IMG/VR virus record: IMGVR_UViG_3300028388_002247
Location: 1-28,456 of that record
Source: a virus
DNA: 28,456 nucleotides
Reading direction: 5' to 3' (one strand)
Part shown: positions 12,420-20,972 of the stretch, one piece after another
Layout of the letters: each line of letters opens with the position of its first letter
Position numbering within the stretch: position 1 is the stretch's first letter
Translations under genes and position numbers: made by a program
The notes under the pieces: model-generated
What the model was told of the DNA's origin: nothing
Databases searched by the model: none
The model's input: only the letters and a program-made list of their open reading frames with translations

Positions 12420-12842
12420 TTAACCAACCTCAACGCCTGGCACGCGGTAAACGCGGCGCATACGGCGCAACAAACTGCCAACAAGCCCAACTTCAACCAC
12501 TTTGCCAACTGAGCCATAAGAATGAATAACTGTTCCGCGCGAAGTAATAACGCCAAGATGTTGCGGTTCATTCGCCCAAGCAAACCAACCAATATCACCC
12601 TGTTGCATTTCTGCTTTCGGCACGCTGATTAGATACTGATCTAAAAGCTTGCGCATTCGGCCTGAGTTCGGATCGCGCGCATAATCCCTTTGTGGCACAT
12701 AGTCAGGCGCAAACCCTAAAGCCAGCAACGTCATTTCAGGCACACCAGCACAATCAACGCCGACCCCTTTAACCCTCGCCTGGTGTCGGTATGGCGTCCC
12801 TAACCATGTGCGTGCTTCGCGTTCAATGTCGCTGGTCTTCAC
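12420..12842 (-). CDS. NlpC/P60 tail peptidase
   Basis: A 140-aa cysteine peptidase of the NlpC/P60 fold: ARTWLGTPYRHQ, then VGVDCAGV with catalytic C31, QHLGVI with H95, and the third polar position at H107 (VIHSYG). In GTA and siphovirus tips this protein cleaves peptidoglycan cross-links during DNA entry (family knowledge). The start is GTG at 12842, overlapping the previous stop (GTGA). It is the only clear peptidoglycan-active enzyme in the window. Confidence 0.9.
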   Translation of the reverse strand: MKTSDIEREARTWLGTPYRHQARVKGVGVDCAGVPEMTLLALGFAPDYVPQRDYARDPNSGRMRKLLDQYLISVPKAEMQQGDIGWFAWANEPQHLGVITSRGTVIHSYGSVGKVVEVGLVGSLLRRMRRVYRVPGVEVG

Positions 12843-13915
12843 TTCACAACCCTAACGGCGTCGTCACCTGTTGGCAGATCAGGAAAGCCGCCAAAGTTTT
12901 TCACGTTTCCGTTATCTTCCTGATTGAACTTTGCCGCACAATCCCCTGTGTAATCGGTGCCCCATTCGTCAGACGGCAATCGCGCTAAGTGATTACAGCC
13001 AACGGTTACGGTCGCCGTGTCGCCAACGTCAATCGCGAACGGCATCGGCCCTTTTAGCGTGAACACGCCGGCATTGGTGCTGCTCTTAACGTCCTGCGAA
13101 GCGCCGGCATTATTTCCCGTCAGCCAGGTAACTTTGCCAAATCGAAACCAGCCATTTGCTTCGGTGCGGCTGGTATCAATGAATTCCTGCTTGTCGGCGC
13201 CAGTCGTCACCGTGATTTGCTTGGTATACGCGTCGTAACACGTCCAAACAACACCATCAGTTTCGGTTGTCGTGTTTCCTATGGTTGTGTCCCAAGTCGG
13301 CTCGCCTTCGGTGTCGTTGCTGGTGCCTGCGGTAGTGCAGACATAGCGCCGCCCGTCATACGTGGTTGGGGATACCGCATCACCAACCGCGTAAGCAGTG
13401 CTTGCCTGCCACTCTGACGGTGAAAGCTCAATGCCACAACTGCTATCGCCCAACGTGTGCCGACAATGCCTGTCGAGTTTGTAGCCTATGGTGTTGTTCA
13501 ACTGACGGAACAGAGAAACAAACTCTGCCTCAAAGGTTGATCGGTTTTGCGTGATTTCCCCAATATACCCATAATCAAGCTTATGGGCGCCTAAGCTTGT
13601 GTCGGTGTAATCCACTTGGAAGAATTCCACTTCTGCGCCAGTCCATAAACCTTTGGCAATATCGCTTGCCGTAATCAAATCAGAATCGAAGACAACCATT
13701 TGCATGTTGTCAGTATTCAACCCTGATTTGCTTGAGTGCGCGCTGCGCTTCAATCCGCCTGCTGCCTGGTACGTGTTGCCGTCAACAGTCAGATTCACTT
13801 GGTGCGAAGTTAGATAAACATTCAGCCCGTCGCGGCGCGTCAGCTTTGCGCAATCGGCAACCGTAGTTGAAGAACCAGAAAAAGCCGTTACAAGCCCTGC
13901 GCCTGTGCCTTTCAT
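12839..13915 (-). CDS. DUF2163/BR0599-type tail hub protein
   Basis: A 358-aa protein of the GTA orf13-like hub family. The N-terminus has LTRRDGLNVYLTSHQVNLTVDG and the family-typical GLKRSA; the C-terminus ends in CAAKFNQEDNGNVKNFGGFPDLP. C151, C160, C307 and C326 fit the conserved cysteines that hold an iron-sulfur cluster in lambda gpL-like hubs (inference). Residues about 168-231 (WQASTAYAVGDAV...GRRYVCTT...EPTWDT...GVVWTCYDA) form an inserted module like the chitin-type carbohydrate-binding motif often found in phage tail proteins. It overlaps DUF2460 by 4 nt upstream and NlpC downstream. Confidence 0.85.
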   Translation of the reverse strand: MKGTGAGLVTAFSGSSTTVADCAKLTRRDGLNVYLTSHQVNLTVDGNTYQAAGGLKRSAHSSKSGLNTDNMQMVVFDSDLITASDIAKGLWTGAEVEFFQVDYTDTSLGAHKLDYGYIGEITQNRSTFEAEFVSLFRQLNNTIGYKLDRHCRHTLGDSSCGIELSPSEWQASTAYAVGDAVSPTTYDGRRYVCTTAGTSNDTEGEPTWDTTIGNTTTETDGVVWTCYDAYTKQITVTTGADKQEFIDTSRTEANGWFRFGKVTWLTGNNAGASQDVKSSTNAGVFTLKGPMPFAIDVGDTATVTVGCNHLARLPSDEWGTDYTGDCAAKFNQEDNGNVKNFGGFPDLPTGDDAVRVVK

Positions 13916-14547: not shown

Positions 14548-16404
14548 TTAGCTATACCTCGCCGCAGCACGTTGCGCTGCAAAGCCTGTTCTTAGCGCAA
14601 TCTGATCAGCTGTGCGGTTTATGTCGTCTTGGCGCCCGCCGGTAATGTAATTGGTTTGCTGCAGCATCAAAGACCGCATGCCGCCTCGCTTGTGGTCGAT
14701 AACCGTTTCGTCAGGGTGAACCATTGCCAGATAGCCGCCTTTGCCATCCAAACCGCCGACGCGCATGCCAGGCCCCGTATAACCGCCACCGTCAAAGCTA
14801 AACAGCCCGCTGATAAAGTCACCGATGCCGCTAAACAGATCGCCGCCGCCTGAAGGTTTCAACATGCTAGTGATGCTTTCTGTGAGAGGTTTTGTCACTA
14901 AACTGCGCGTTATTGTTCGCAAGATGTCTTGCTCTAATCCTTTCAAAACATCTGACAACTGCTCACCATTAACAATGGCATCTTCAAATGCACTGGAAAA
15001 AGAAAGGCCAAGTTCTTCTGCAACGTCTTTCGTTTTTTCTGTTTCGTCTAGAATTTCGCTCGTTTTGTCTTCTAACGAAGACATTGCATCAAATATTGCG
15101 CCTTCATAAGTTTCTGCGGAAATCCAACCTCTACGGAATGCCTCTTCTATTTTTGCCAAATCGTCCGCCACTTGCTGCGCCGGATTTTGTGTCCTTGTTA
15201 AAGAATCTGCATAATCTTTCAACTCTTGATCTGCGCGCTTTAATTCATTCGCAAGCATTTTTAATGCGCGCTGATATTCATCAACCCCCTTCGTTGCTTT
15301 GCTTACTTTTTCTTCGCTTCCATTAAACAAAACGGATGTGTCAATCGGCGGGGCATTTTCAGCATTTAGTTTTGCTTCAAAAAGCTTGTCGTTTAACTTT
15401 GCTTGCTCAATTTCTATGTAATCACGGACTTCGGCAAGCTTTTCTTGCAGATTTGAGATTCTGCCTCTTAATTCATCTTCGGAAGGCAACAAAAACAGAT
15501 CAAGAATATTTCCAGATTCTTCGCCTTCATTAATTGCTAAACGCCTTCTTAGTTTGTCTTGTTCGTCTTTTAATCTTTCTTCAAGGCGTGCAAACGTAAC
15601 TTTGAGGCCATCAATAGATTGTTTTGAAGGTTTGTCGAGAGAATTAAAAAACGCGGCAACTTTTGGCGCTGCATCGGCAAACGCTTGCCCAACTGAAGTA
15701 ATAATTGGCGCAAGGCTATTCAAGGCCACAACAACTTGCGTTTTCACCACGCTTGCCATGACGTTTAAATTATCATTCGCTTCGCTTGCGTTTTGAATTA
15801 TTGCATCATCAATAATCAAGCCAAGTTCATCGGCCTTCGTTGCAAAATCGTCTAGTGAATTGGTTCCGCCTTTTAATAAAACCCCCATCCTTTGCGCGTC
15901 ATCGCCAAACAGCCTAGTAGCTAATGCCAGGCGGTTTGTGTCGCTTTCCATTTCACCAAGCGTTGCAACTACTTGATTAAATACTTGCTCGTTGGTTTGC
16001 TTAAGATTGATACCTAAAGCTTGATAAGTTTTTGCCGCTGCGCCTGCGCCAGCGCGCGCCAAGCCTAAGCGTTTAGTGAATCGTCCTAAAGCACCTTCCA
16101 ATGTATTCCAAGAAATATCGTTTTGTTTTGCAGCAAACTTTAGTTCTTGAAGTCGCTTTGTTGTGAATGCAGTTTGTTCTGCAGCATTTGCTATGCTGTC
16201 CGCATAGTTCAGCGCGCCTTTAACTGCAGCAACAGAAAAAACACTACCAATAGTAACTGCTAACCCACTGAACGCGCCTTTCAGCCTGTTGGAAACCCTG
16301 TTAGCGCTCAACTCAAAACGATTGAGTTCGCGCCCCATTTTGTCCACTTGGTTGGAAAACTTTGCCACATTAGCAACAAAGTCTATCGTTACACCTTGAG
16401 GCAT
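14548..16404 (-). CDS. tail tape measure protein
   Basis: A 618-aa protein. N-terminal coiled coil (VAKFSNQVDKMGRELNRFELS), a hydrophobic stretch near 44-63, long charged helices in the middle (LEERLKDEQDKLRRRLAI, LQEKLAEVRDYIEIEQAKL), and the lambda-like C-terminus FDGGGYTGPGMRVGGLDGKG followed by HPDETVIDHKRGG. Tape measure proteins set tail length at about 0.15 nm per residue, so a tail near 90 nm is expected, a short siphovirus tail. The start overlaps the previous stop (TAATG). Confidence 0.9.
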   Translation of the reverse strand: MPQGVTIDFVANVAKFSNQVDKMGRELNRFELSANRVSNRLKGAFSGLAVTIGSVFSVAAVKGALNYADSIANAAEQTAFTTKRLQELKFAAKQNDISWNTLEGALGRFTKRLGLARAGAGAAAKTYQALGINLKQTNEQVFNQVVATLGEMESDTNRLALATRLFGDDAQRMGVLLKGGTNSLDDFATKADELGLIIDDAIIQNASEANDNLNVMASVVKTQVVVALNSLAPIITSVGQAFADAAPKVAAFFNSLDKPSKQSIDGLKVTFARLEERLKDEQDKLRRRLAINEGEESGNILDLFLLPSEDELRGRISNLQEKLAEVRDYIEIEQAKLNDKLFEAKLNAENAPPIDTSVLFNGSEEKVSKATKGVDEYQRALKMLANELKRADQELKDYADSLTRTQNPAQQVADDLAKIEEAFRRGWISAETYEGAIFDAMSSLEDKTSEILDETEKTKDVAEELGLSFSSAFEDAIVNGEQLSDVLKGLEQDILRTITRSLVTKPLTESITSMLKPSGGGDLFSGIGDFISGLFSFDGGGYTGPGMRVGGLDGKGGYLAMVHPDETVIDHKRGGMRSLMLQQTNYITGGRQDDINRTADQIALRTGFAAQRAAARYS

Positions 16405-16907
16405 TATCTAAATCCCGATTTTTTGGCTAAGATGTTTGCCGCAGATCGCGCAGCTTTAATAGTAACCCGTATTGCATAAGTTCGACTGCTGCTAAAACCT
16501 TTTTGCATAAAACTTTTTGGAAGTATGTCGCGCTTACCTGGCAACGTTTTTCGCTCTTTTCCTTTTCTGCCAAAAGGTCGCAATTTGCCTCGAACGTTCC
16601 AACCGTCATTTTGAAATCGTCCATAATATGCGTCTCTTTCGCCGGCTTTTGGACCTCGCCTTATCGTTATATACAAGCCGCGCTTAGTTCCTCTTCGCTT
16701 GCTGTGTATTTTTGACCTTTTAATAATTATCCCCTTGCGTAAAACACCAGTGCGCACTGGCACGCGTCGTTTTATATCATCGACTATTACACGCGCACCA
16801 AGTCTTAACGATTTATAAACGATTTTGTCGCCAAACTTTGTGCCAAACCGATATAAATTACGCTTAACGTCTTCCAACCCATCAACTTTTATCTCTATGT
16901 CAGACAC
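16404..16907 (-). CDS. HK97 gp10-like protein
   Basis: A 167-aa, highly basic protein. VDGLEDVKRNLYRFG...LRLGARVIVDDIKRRVPVRTGVLRKG is the HK97 gp10 family core (tail completion or head-tail joining role). Start is GTG at 16907 with GGGA 8 nt upstream; the gene begins just before the stop of the chaperone frameshift frame. Its place is unusual: members normally stand between connector and tail tube, but here the gene lies between the tail chaperones and the tape measure. Either the tail order was shuffled or this protein has a chaperone-side role. Confidence 0.75.
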   Translation of the reverse strand: MSDIEIKVDGLEDVKRNLYRFGTKFGDKIVYKSLRLGARVIVDDIKRRVPVRTGVLRKGIIIKRSKIHSKRRGTKRGLYITIRRGPKAGERDAYYGRFQNDGWNVRGKLRPFGRKGKERKTLPGKRDILPKSFMQKGFSSSRTYAIRVTIKAARSAANILAKKSGFR

Positions 16908-17462
16908 GGTTGAAATCCCGAATAATGGTTAATTGGTCAACAAGCCATTCTATGTCCTGAATACCTAGCAACTCGGCAACCGTTTCCAATCCTGACCAGT
17001 TAAGCCCGCCGAGAAGATTCCACGCCCGCAACACCATCTGCATTTGCGGGTCGTCCGGTTGTTTGAAGTTCGCTTGCTGCTGGCCTGGAAGCGGTTGCAA
17101 ACTGCTCTCAAGCCAGCATCTTAGTTTCCCGCGTCGGCCTCAAGCTTCGCCGCGTGCGTCTGATAGGCACTGGAAACGCCTTTCATTATGTCCGCCCACG
17201 CGTCAGGGTGATCCGCCGCCCATTCTTCAAACGCTTCGACATCAAACGGCGCAGGATCTCCAACGCCGCCAGGTATTAAATCCGATTCCTTCAAATCCCA
17301 ACCGACAACAAACCGCAGCACGTTGCGAATGGTCAAACCGCCATCGGCTTGCTGCAGTTCCAGCACTTCCAAATGCGTTGGCCTGCGAATGGTGAACCGA
17401 TGCCCACAAGAAGACACGGCAGATTGCCGCGCCTTCCTGATCTTTTCCGCTAGTGCGCCCAT
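16900..17462 (-). CDS. tail assembly chaperone, -1 frameshift fusion (lambda G-T-like)
   Basis: Programmed -1 shifting at 17124-17130 would join the 113-aa frame to the downstream frame, giving about 187 aa. The junction reads ...LEADAGN, then LRCWLESS, then LQPLPGQQQ. The added part contains MQMVLRAWNLLGGLNWSGLE and VAELLGIQDIEWLVDQLTIIRD, typical of T-type extensions. The downstream frame is open across the junction but has only a TTG and no ATG near its beginning, and no good Shine-Dalgarno, so fusion is the likely expression route. Coordinates cover both frames. Confidence 0.7.
17121..17462 (-). CDS. tail assembly chaperone, unshifted product (lambda G-like)
   Basis: A 113-aa protein between tail tube and tape measure, the normal position of lambda G. 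HRFTIRRPTHLEVLELQQ and LRFVVGWDLKESDLIPGG match short tail-chaperone proteins that bind the tape measure during tail assembly. The start overlaps the tube stop (TGATG). It ends at TAA immediately after the slippery heptamer GGGAAAC, so most ribosomes should release this short form. Confidence 0.75.
   Translation of the reverse strand: MGALAEKIRKARQSAVSSCGHRFTIRRPTHLEVLELQQADGGLTIRNVLRFVVGWDLKESDLIPGGVGDPAPFDVEAFEEWAADHPDAWADIMKGVSSAYQTHAAKLEADAGN
17124..17130 (-). promoter_or_regulatory. -1 ribosomal slippery site GGGAAAC
   Basis: The heptamer reads G GGA AAC in the zero frame (codons GCG GGA AAC TAA), the X XXY YYZ form, directly before the stop. Lambda uses G GGA AAG for gpG/gpGT. The -1 frame continues CTA AGA TGC TGG. 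Confidence 0.8.
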
Positions 17463-18100
17463 CAGCTGCTGTAATTGGTCACGCTGTTAGACGCGGTAAT
17501 TGTTGCCGGCGTCGTAACAACGTCCTGAGCGTTACCAGTAGGCACGAACACAAAACCCACATAACCATAGAACGTAGAAATTGCGCCACTCGCAAAGGTG
17601 AATTTGATTGCGCGTTGCGCCTTCGAATCGTTCGCGGTCTTCATAGCGGCAAGGCCTGCGTCGTCAGGTTCCCAACGGTTCTGCAAACTGAATGACAGAG
17701 CAGAAGCAACAGTCGGAATCTGTGTTCTGATTTTGTCGTGAATAGTGGTCGTGTCCGCGAATTCAGTTTCGCCACCAGATGCCGACACACCTTGAATAGT
17801 GCCAAGACTGGTTCCAAAGGTAATCACGGCAAACGTGCCACTCGAAAAAGTGCCAAAGTCTGTCGTGTCTTCGCCTTCAAGTTCAAACGAGCCTGCCGCT
17901 TGGTTAGCCACTCGGAAAACGCGCTCGTTGAGTTCGGTCATGCCGTCAACCAGTAACAACACATAGTCTCCGTCGCTCGGATCAGTGCCAGAATGTGAAA
18001 CCACGCCTGGCGATGCCTTGGTGATTCCGGTAATCGTTACAGCGGTCGCCAAAGCTGATTGCATGGCAACTTGAACATTCGACCATACTTGTGCGGCCAT
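17462..18100 (-). CDS. major tail (tube) protein
   Basis: A 212-aa beta-rich protein located between tail completion and chaperone genes. VWSNVQVAMQSALATAVTITGITKA is the opening of tube proteins of the TTP_3 type, and the C-terminal half has FTFASGAISTFYGYVGFVFVPTG, the typical reporting strand of a tube beta-sandwich. Hexameric rings of this protein should build the tail tube. The stop overlaps the chaperone ATG (TGATG). Confidence 0.85.
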   Translation of the reverse strand: MAAQVWSNVQVAMQSALATAVTITGITKASPGVVSHSGTDPSDGDYVLLLVDGMTELNERVFRVANQAAGSFELEGEDTTDFGTFSSGTFAVITFGTSLGTIQGVSASGGETEFADTTTIHDKIRTQIPTVASALSFSLQNRWEPDDAGLAAMKTANDSKAQRAIKFTFASGAISTFYGYVGFVFVPTGNAQDVVTTPATITASNSVTNYSS

Positions 18101-18574: not shown

Positions 18575-19146
18575 CAGATCAAAACTCGCCGATACCCGCT
18601 TAACAAATCATAGAACTGTTTAGGTATTCTGCTCGGCCCGATGCCGCTTTCTGCCTCTTTCTGGAACCGCAGCCAATGCCCAACAAGAATAATAATCGCC
18701 TGTTTAATCTTGCCAGGCACGTCTGCAGGATCGTCGCCCCAGCCTGATACATAACGGATTTTGACGGCATTAGCTACAGCTTGTGTGTTCGGCCAATCTT
18801 CGCCGTATGCCGGCAACAACCAATCGACCAGCCCGTAATTATCAAGCGAATAATCTGCAGAATCTAACGTCTGCTCGGTGCCGTTTTCGTCCACATATTT
18901 GACAGAAGTGATCGACTGAACCGGTCCAGATTCTAGTTCAATGTTGTAGGTAAAAACGTCCAAAACCATTTCAACGGTTTGAGAAATAATCCGGCGCCGC
19001 AAGTAATGCTCTGCCTCTTCGCGCGCCGCCGCAATGTAAGCGGTAATATTGTCGTCGTCTCTATCATCAGAAATAGAAAGCCGCGTTTTTACATCAGCCA
19101 GCGTAATCGGCTCGTTTGCAGGTTCAGTTATTGTCTTGACGGCCAT
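18574..19146 (-). CDS. head-tail connector (HK97 gp6-like)
   Basis: A 190-aa protein. The helical N-terminus EPITLADVKTRLSISDDRDDDNITAYI, then AAREEAEHYLRRRI, is the hallmark of gp6-like head-tail connectors, a ring beneath the portal. The C-terminal portion, KIRYVSGWGDDPADVPGKIKQAI, is also typical. The start lies inside the 3' end of the repeat-protein gene (19-nt overlap). Confidence 0.85.
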   Translation of the reverse strand: MAVKTITEPANEPITLADVKTRLSISDDRDDDNITAYIAAAREEAEHYLRRRIISQTVEMVLDVFTYNIELESGPVQSITSVKYVDENGTEQTLDSADYSLDNYGLVDWLLPAYGEDWPNTQAVANAVKIRYVSGWGDDPADVPGKIKQAIIILVGHWLRFQKEAESGIGPSRIPKQFYDLLSGYRRVLI

Positions 19147-20972
19147 TTTCTAACACCTCTTGATCGGCTTATGCGCATTGGCCTATCGCCTGATTTTCTA
19201 GCGGCTGAACGTATAGCGCCGTAAGGTTGCACCAATGGCGCATCAAGTGCCGGCGCGCTAATTTCTGTGCTTGATTCTATGTCAGTTGCAGCAATTACGT
19301 GTGTTTGCGTTATTGCAGGCGCGACAATTTCTGACGTGCTGAAAACTTCCTGCGCGGTAAAGTTATGCGTTTGACCAATTGCCGGCGAATCAACTTCGCT
19401 CGTTGATTCAACGTCATCAGGCAGCAAGTTATGGTCAGCGGTGTTTTCTGTCAGGCTTGGCGCGCTAACCTGCGAAGCACTCTGAACGTCAGTTGCTGCC
19501 AAGCTATGAGCTTGCGCGATTGCTGGCGAATCAACCTCGGTCGATGAATCAATATCTATCGCTGCAAGATTATGCGCCTGACCAATGGCCGGGGTATCGA
19601 GATCGACAGCAGATTCGACGTCCGTTGCAGTTAACTGGTGTCCGGTAGAAAGTGCCGGTGTATCGAGTTCCGTTGTCGCGTCAAGATTAACAGCCGTTAG
19701 CGCGTGGGTTTGCGTGAGCGACGGAGTATCTAATTCGGTTGTTGCGTCAAGGTCTGTTGCGGTTAAATCGTCAGCACCACCCGCCGAACTATCGCCAATG
19801 GTGAAAACAAGCGCCTTAAATGCGCTTGAAGCATTGTCCGAATAGCTAAGGGTGAAGCCGTCAGAATTCAGGCTAGATAAAGACGCAACCGCATTTTGCG
19901 TGGTCGTCTGGTCGTAGAAATCGACAACGTTTGATGTGTTTCTTGAACTATTGGTATCTGAAGTCGCTTGTGCATCTTCTGACGAAGCAGATATCGATAC
20001 TTCATCATCTGTATCAGCCGCACCAAGCATGAATGCAAAGCCATCTGCCTTCGTCTGGTTAGCTGTTGCCTGACTAACTACCAATCCAACCAAATCAGGC
20101 TCATGTGGTGAACTGCTGTAACTGTCTGTCGTTCCACTGGTGGCTAATGTGTCAAACCCTATATGAAAATCATCATCGTTCGGCGCTTCTAACGCCAGAA
20201 TAAAAATGTAGTCACTTACGGGATTGGTGTCAGTAGTTAGCGTGAAACCTTGAGAATCAAAAGAGCCAACAGAGCCACGCCAGGACGGGCTGGCAGCATC
20301 GTTATAATGTTGGCCTACACAATGCGACTGGTCAAACCAACTATGCGAAATTGATTGAGCAGATTCGGCATTTTTATCACCTAAAATTACGCAGCCTTGC
20401 GTCGTGCTTGTACCGTTATGAAAAGCACCAAATGAAAACAAGTTTTCCACTTCTTGATCATCGGCACTACCCGCATAGCCGACTGTTCCTATAAATCCGC
20501 AGTTAGGTTCAAACCCGATTGTGTTTATATCGTAAGTTGTTCCGCTCCCTAATTTATAACTGAGTGCTTTGGCATTAGTCAGTCCGCTAATCAGTATGGC
20601 TTGTACTTTGTAGGAAACTCCTGCGACGGTTGTATCAGTTGTCAGCGTTATGCCATCGGTTTTAGCTGATGCCGTAACCTCTAGCGCATCAAAATCGGGT
20701 CCGAATGCAGTAAGACTATCTGAGTTAGCAGCCCTCTTAGTTACGGTAACTGAAGTAGCATCTTCCGACCTAACACCAAAGCTTATATTATTTGTACCAT
20801 CCCAAAAGCCAACACTGACAAACGCATTCGCACGCGGATTCGCCGCATAGACGAAGTTCATGTAAATAATAGCGGCGTCAACAGTACCAAAACCAGTAGG
20901 CCCGGTTAAGTCTACTGTTCCCGTTGCGGTATCTGATAAAGTACCTTCAACGACGCATGCCTTAGTCGCCAT
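19128..20972 (-). CDS. three-domain structural protein with C-terminal repeats
   Basis: A 614-aa protein. Three related beta-rich domains follow each other: residues about 25-130 (FGTVDAAIIY... ending DGITLTTDT), 153-262 (FEPNCGFIG... ending SQGFTLTTDT) and 290-394 (EPDLVGLVV... ending SDGFTLSYSD). Each follows a scheme known from phage surface-exposed proteins: PDxV start, FG-rich strand, SFDxDGFTL end. Residues 402-579 are eight 22-aa repeats of the type LTATDLDATTELDTPALGQTH, probably an extended stalk or linker. The tail is basic (RSAARKSGDRPMR). It may be a head fibre or decoration protein; its place between capsid and connector genes is atypical for a tail fibre. Confidence 0.7.
   Translation of the reverse strand: MATKACVVEGTLSDTATGTVDLTGPTGFGTVDAAIIYMNFVYAANPRANAFVSVGFWDGTNNISFGVRSEDATSVTVTKRAANSDSLTAFGPDFDALEVTASAKTDGITLTTDTTVAGVSYKVQAILISGLTNAKALSYKLGSGTTYDINTIGFEPNCGFIGTVGYAGSADDQEVENLFSFGAFHNGTSTTQGCVILGDKNAESAQSISHSWFDQSHCVGQHYNDAASPSWRGSVGSFDSQGFTLTTDTNPVSDYIFILALEAPNDDDFHIGFDTLATSGTTDSYSSSPHEPDLVGLVVSQATANQTKADGFAFMLGAADTDDEVSISASSEDAQATSDTNSSRNTSNVVDFYDQTTTQNAVASLSSLNSDGFTLSYSDNASSAFKALVFTIGDSSAGGADDLTATDLDATTELDTPSLTQTHALTAVNLDATTELDTPALSTGHQLTATDVESAVDLDTPAIGQAHNLAAIDIDSSTEVDSPAIAQAHSLAATDVQSASQVSAPSLTENTADHNLLPDDVESTSEVDSPAIGQTHNFTAQEVFSTSEIVAPAITQTHVIAATDIESSTEISAPALDAPLVQPYGAIRSAARKSGDRPMRISRSRGVRKWPSRQ
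19236..19769 (-). repeat. eight tandem 66-nt coding repeats
   Basis: Encodes residues 402-579 of the preceding structural protein. Units align at L-A-A-T-D-[LVI]-x-S-x-T-E-[LV]-D-[ST]-P-A-[LI]-x-Q-x-H. The fifth is lengthened by three residues (TENTADHN). Diverged DNA copies show the repeat is old rather than recent slippage. Confidence 0.8.

Follow-up and report, generated by a model that had tools for sequence, protein, structure and literature searches.

We identified a junction between two overlapping reading frames in the tail genes of a phage that is very probably a programmed −1 ribosomal frameshift site, by which two tail assembly chaperones (TACs), G and the fusion GT, would be made from one start codon. 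The window, that is, the whole stretch of DNA analysed here, comprises 28,456 nucleotides (positions 1 to 28,456 of IMG/VR virus record IMGVR_UViG_3300028388_002247). The whole frameshift site lies on its minus strand, where the letters read ...GAG GCC GAC GCG GGA AAC TAA GAT GCT GGC TTG..., and its core consists of the following features:

17124 to 17130, minus strand: slippery heptamer G GGA AAC in the phase X XXY YYZ; an in-phase heptamer stands at the homologous place in 101/102 distinct relatives.
17121 to 17123, minus strand: zero-frame stop TAA abutting the heptamer, read from the sequence; the stop abuts in 69/101 relatives.
17121 to 17462, minus strand: G, the 113-aa product of standard decoding, from the ORF call (ATG at 17462, TAA at 17123-17121).
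16900 to 17139, minus strand: T, in the −1 frame, with its stop at 16902-16900; the T domain is the 74 aa past the heptamer (17124-16903).

A sequence-only reading of the window had placed GGGAAAC in the phase G GGA AAC right before the stop of the 113-aa ORF. This is what we saw, at 17130-17124 with TAA directly following, and we add the strand, which was missing from that reading. It had also described the −1 frame as open into a 66-aa extension. The frame is indeed open, from 17139 to 16900, with the nearest upstream stop (TGA) at 17142-17140; the length has to be corrected, as 74 residues of the 187-aa GT fusion come from the −1 frame after the heptamer. The figure of 66 aa belongs to a mechanical ORF that begins at a TTG at 17100, beyond an invariant W-L motif. 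The overlap between G and the −1 frame leaves only about 5 in-phase positions, among which an XXXYYYZ heptamer (Y = A or T) is expected by chance in about 1% of cases. On its own, the 7-mer GGGAAAC occurs in the window about as often as expected (3 observed vs 3.7 expected), so the weight is carried by its phase, its place and its conservation. Scanning the window for Rfam families and tRNAs gave no matches.

To place the junction among its neighbours, the adjoining genes are listed below:

17462 to 18100, minus strand: major tail tube protein (Phage_tail_3, PF08813, E 1e-25), a profile match directly upstream of G.
16404 to 16907, minus strand: HK97-gp10-like protein (PF04883, phrog_5), between GT and the tape measure gene.
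14548 to 16404, minus strand: tape measure protein of 618 aa (phrog_9483 and others).

The gene order is thus tail tube, G, GT, HK97-gp10-like and tape measure. Besides the tail tube gene, a tail terminator and a head-tail adaptor are encoded further upstream of G, and a DUF2460 protein and a hub protein follow the tape measure protein, which is the presumed client of the chaperone. Together these genes make up the minus-strand tail module of an HK97-like siphophage. The HK97-gp10-like gene starts at a GTG that overlaps the last bases of T (16900-16907, minus strand), and this arrangement suggests that translation of the gene may be coupled to the ribosomes that make GT. Between the Gp84_N and BR0599 domains of the hub-type protein (12839-13915, minus strand), residues 168-201 resemble a carbohydrate-binding module (CBM_5_12), with a score below the Pfam cut-off. 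In addition, the translation of a 614-aa ORF (19128-20972, minus strand), flanked by the head genes on one side and the head-tail adaptor on the other, shows a unit like 'LTATDLDATTELDTPSLTQTHA' repeated imperfectly several times.

No match to a curated TAC family in Pfam or NCBIfam was obtained for the G and T of the window. The 113-aa protein gave one weak PHROG match (phrog_569, E 6e-4, labelled tape measure), and its relatives matched phrog_569 in 13 of 41 cases and phrog_313, 'Tail assembly chaperone', in 3 of 41. The AlphaFold model of G reached a pLDDT of 93.7. Among its best viral fold matches are proteins named as tail assembly or tape measure chaperones (Foldseek probability 0.8-1.0, E at best 3e-3); the top solved structure is the HK97 TAC 2ob9, at an E of 1.6 against the PDB, which by itself is no evidence. 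Taken together, the gene order, the weak TAC profile matches in relatives and the predicted fold would be consistent with a lambda G/GT-type tail assembly chaperone. Pfam and NCBIfam gave no match for the chaperone family to which the G and T of the window would belong.

Single-protein searches with the GT fusion returned no relatives from viral contigs, genome contigs or named phages, and the broad alignments A4 and A5 were too diverged to serve as search queries. Relatives were therefore gathered by tail-tube searches followed by profile searches of viral contigs, which yielded more than 200 loci. From these, 102 distinct junctions were retained, at most 80% identical over 110 nt and with both domains recognisable. 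T lies in the −1 frame in all 102. The T domain of the window shares 30-52% identity with the T domains of 41 relatives, and W117 is invariant. Conservation of the heptamer in relatives had been set as a test beforehand; with the window included, it is kept in phase in all junctions except one (L036). The heptamer is AAAAAAC in 74 of these 101 junctions, GGGAAAC in 8, GGGAAAG in 8, AAAAAAG in 7 and AAAAAAA in 4.

The sequence-only reading was right about the heptamer and the frame and had overlooked the likely boosters of the site, namely a downstream stem-loop and an upstream sequence resembling a Shine-Dalgarno (SD) motif:

17078 to 17118, minus strand: stem-loop with a 10-bp outer stem and an inner stem, starting 5 nt after the heptamer; from folding energy and covariation.
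17138 to 17141, minus strand: SD-like GAGG, ending 7 nt upstream of the heptamer; the family consensus is GGAGG at −12 to −8.

The stem-loop of the window has a folding energy of about −24 kcal/mol, with a z of about −2.4 to −3.5. Over 51 relatives, the mean z of the 60-nt stretch counted from the heptamer was −3.4, and the windows on either side were near 0. Further, the fold energy of the relatives was −24.4, vs −18.7 ± 0.45 in synonymous shuffles of the T frame (0/100 shuffles). Because loop lengths differ, the pairing of the two arms was examined by a swap test in place of an alignment by MAFFT plus RNAalifold. When the 3' halves were exchanged between relatives, the energy was −18.9, vs −24.9 for own halves (0/5000 permutations). 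Own halves fold better than swapped ones, which indicates that the two stem arms covary.

For the SD-like sequence of the window, the duplex formed with its neighbouring bases was calculated at −5.6 kcal/mol, a moderate value. Among the relatives with a C-ending heptamer, the anti-SD pairing was −5.39, vs −3.96 ± 0.27 in synonymous shuffles (0/300), and the Glu codon at −11 is GAG in a ratio of 43:9, vs 475:381 elsewhere (p 8e-5). The null of the synonymous shuffles itself lies at about −4.0, vs about −1.8 elsewhere in G; part of the signal thus survives shuffling, and that part is due to amino acid content. An upstream SD-like stimulator is active at 6-17 nt, and conserved SDs were reported in 3/13 clusters of insertion sequences (IS) and prophages (PMC4066793). 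The position of the putative SD-like stimulator falls within this range at the family level and, with GAGG ending at 7 nt, in the window itself. The predictor PRFect scores an RBS for such genes. In the literature searched, we found no description of the combination of SD-like sequence, heptamer and stem-loop for tail assembly chaperones.

We considered whether the downstream pairing and the GGAGG-like motif might reflect constraint on the protein, through the conserved W-L-E motif and the Glu-Ala codons, and have no RNA function. The 5' arm of the stem does code for W-L-E, and the partial persistence of the SD-like signal in the shuffles points the same way. However, both the stem-loop and the SD-like signals beat their synonymous-shuffle nulls, and the stem halves covary between relatives, so that an origin in protein constraint is improbable.

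Another reading is that T is a separate gene, translated either from the TTG at 17100 or by ribosomes that re-initiate past the stop of G, and that the heptamer is coincidental. This TTG is preceded by a weak GAGAG, and many relatives have SD-like motifs ahead of the junction. However, a start at 17100 would drop the invariant W-L motif. In 66 of 101 relatives, the T frame contains no ATG, GTG or TTG at all before the conserved W, and an ATG together with an SD occurs there in 0 of 101. The two observations named beforehand as refuting, relatives that lack the heptamer and relatives with an own ATG and Shine-Dalgarno for T, were looked for and not made, apart from one relative without a heptamer (L036) and a contig with an in-frame fusion (L070/L235). 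Together with the retention of the heptamer, these results make a separately started T very improbable. Fusion through slippage of RNA polymerase on a homopolymer run, for which the A6 runs of most relatives and a single contig whose A7 run places G and T in the same frame might speak, is less credible still, as GGGAAAN in the window and 15 other relatives offers no run longer than 3, the downstream stem-loop and the SD-like element suit ribosomal slippage, and transcriptional slippage uses runs of about nine A or T according to a review (PMC5009743).

Two exceptions deserve description. In L036 (852-1412), both domains are in the −1 relation, the overlap contains no XXXYYYZ heptamer, and GGGGGAG is present; either the shift site is non-standard or the sequence contains an error. 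In L070 (and L235, on the same contig), which comes in addition to the 102 junctions, seven A's stand in place of six, which puts G and T in one frame; the fusion may be natural or may stem from an error in the homopolymer. These exceptions mean that slippage is not strictly universal in the family.

The sequence-only reading had proposed a −1 frameshift of the lambda G/G-T type in the tail assembly chaperone. Our results strongly support this proposal, through the near-universal heptamer, the lack of an ATG plus SD for T in 101 relatives, the gene order and the predicted fold. We infer that slippage occurs from the observed sequence, phase, conservation, stem-loop covariation and SD-like excess. 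Most ribosomes would end at the TAA and release G (113 aa). A minority would slip back by one base, with both tRNAs re-pairing from G GGA AAC to GGG AAA, and would continue to give GT (187 aa). The stem-loop, 5 nt downstream, would resist or delay the ribosome, and the upstream GAGG would, by pairing with 16S rRNA, draw the ribosome backwards in the way known from E. coli dnaX, so that heptamer, stem-loop and GAGG may work jointly; the abutting stop may contribute an extra pause. By analogy with lambda, G would coat the tape measure protein, the T part of GT would recruit the tail tube protein, and the ratio of G to GT would be set by slippage.

The G/GT frameshift in the tail assembly chaperone of lambda is reportedly described in work by Levin in 1993 and by Xu in 2004, 2013 and 2014. 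In that phage, the tape measure protein is the binding partner of G, and T brings in the tail tube subunit (PMC5009743). Shared with the window are a G ORF after the tail tube gene, a GGGAAAN −1 heptamer near the end of G, a T domain found in the fusion only, and a location before the tape measure gene. Unlike lambda, the window has a heptamer that ends in C, a stop that abuts it and an HK97-gp10-like gene between GT and tape measure, and the proteins have no detectable sequence relation. An SD-like sequence and a stem-loop also flank the window's site, a comparison that covers the flanks of the window and not those of lambda.

A C-ending heptamer with an abutting stop was already published in 2012 for Burkholderia phage KL1 (PMC3483164). 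In gp18/gp19 of this phage (JF939047), we confirmed from the record that GGGAAAC stands right before the TGA of G and is followed by a −1 extension; likewise, one gene separates GT from tape measure. KL1 differs in that its G is only marginally similar (profile E 5e-4 in a three-protein search), its T gave no match, and its predicted stem is weak (−10.6 kcal/mol). E. coli dnaX (PMC3711429, PMC5600365, PMC7282821) has the same order of SD-like sequence, heptamer and stem-loop a few nt downstream. However, dnaX is a different gene, its heptamer is A AAA AAG, and shifting there yields the shorter of the two products, at about 50%, whereas the heptamer of the window ends in C and the shift would give the longer product. 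The transposase frameshifts of the IS1/IS3 family (PMC4066793) concern another gene with another role.

Related tail tube proteins are also found in Acidovorax phage Aval, Pseudomonas phage PS-1 and Variovorax phage VarioGold, whose G proteins have no recognisable relation to that of the window. Right before the G stop, Aval and PS-1 have GGGAAAC and VarioGold has AAAAAAC. The loci with these in-phase heptamers are L257 3207-3925 (VarioGold), L256 3254-4002 (Aval) and L255 3172-3794 (PS-1). In the three records the shift is unannotated and separate ORFs are given, the second being labelled DUF1799 in VarioGold and FAD-dependent oxidoreductase in Aval.

The sequence-only reading had suggested that shifting may be raised by the C at the end of the heptamer and by the stop that abuts it, for which we found no support. 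The motifs G_GGA_AAC and A_AAA_AAC shift with low efficiency in E. coli, where X_XXA_AAG is the strongest, although C-ending motifs are nonetheless used by insertion sequences (PMC4066793). It is therefore unlikely that the final C raises shifting; by analogy with E. coli, it should lower it. Both features are, moreover, ordinary in this phage group, with the precedent in KL1. Among relatives with a C-ending heptamer, the stop abuts in 66 of 82, and in unrelated chaperone ORFs beside related tail tube genes it abuts in 21 of 26 C-ending sites. In L007, L069, L073, L088 and others, sequence-unrelated chaperone ORFs adjoining related tail tube genes terminate with Lys-Asn-stop, encoded by A AAA AAC followed by TGA, TAA or TAG, and the same junction thus seems to recur where the proteins differ. 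A C-ending heptamer followed by Leu CTN in the −1 frame readily gives TGA or TAA in frame 0, while G-ending heptamers are mostly followed by Ala GCN. The link between final C and abutting stop is thus partly mechanical and is not by itself a sign of selection on the stop.

The stem-loop differed between the two kinds of heptamer. At C-ending sites the mean z was −3.33, with 69 of 82 below −2, vs −0.89 at G-ending sites, with 2 of 15 below −2 (Mann-Whitney p 1e-6, ignoring relatedness). GC content also differs between C-ending and G-ending sites (0.61 vs 0.54), for which the z-scores allow. The 15 G-ending sites represent about 3 (supported branches) to 6 (best tree) independent switches. Among the 3 supported heptamer switches, 1 or 2 are informative, and all informative ones go in the expected direction, too few for significance. 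Tentatively, we speculated from these sequence patterns that a family-wide target ratio of G to GT is held by trading parts, in which case the frameshift rate, and no single element, would be what is conserved. C-ending heptamers, weak for bacterial ribosomes, might on this speculation be the ones to keep a strong stem-loop, the SD-like pull and usually the abutting stop. G-ending heptamers, which are strong, could possibly do without the stem-loop and the abutting stop and have lost them.

In summary, the frameshift site is real, strongly conserved and of a known type, and its heptamer-stop layout has a published precedent. What the analysis adds is a covarying three-part cassette of heptamer, stem-loop and SD-like sequence across a large family, together with a testable idea of compensation, and an unannotated, predicted fusion protein is recognised in an uncultivated phage. 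The family provides about 100 natural variants of one site, in which heptamer, hairpin, SD-like sequence and stop vary, as a ready test set for the control of frameshift rate in bacteria. The same set is suited to asking whether stimulators compensate for weak slippery sites.
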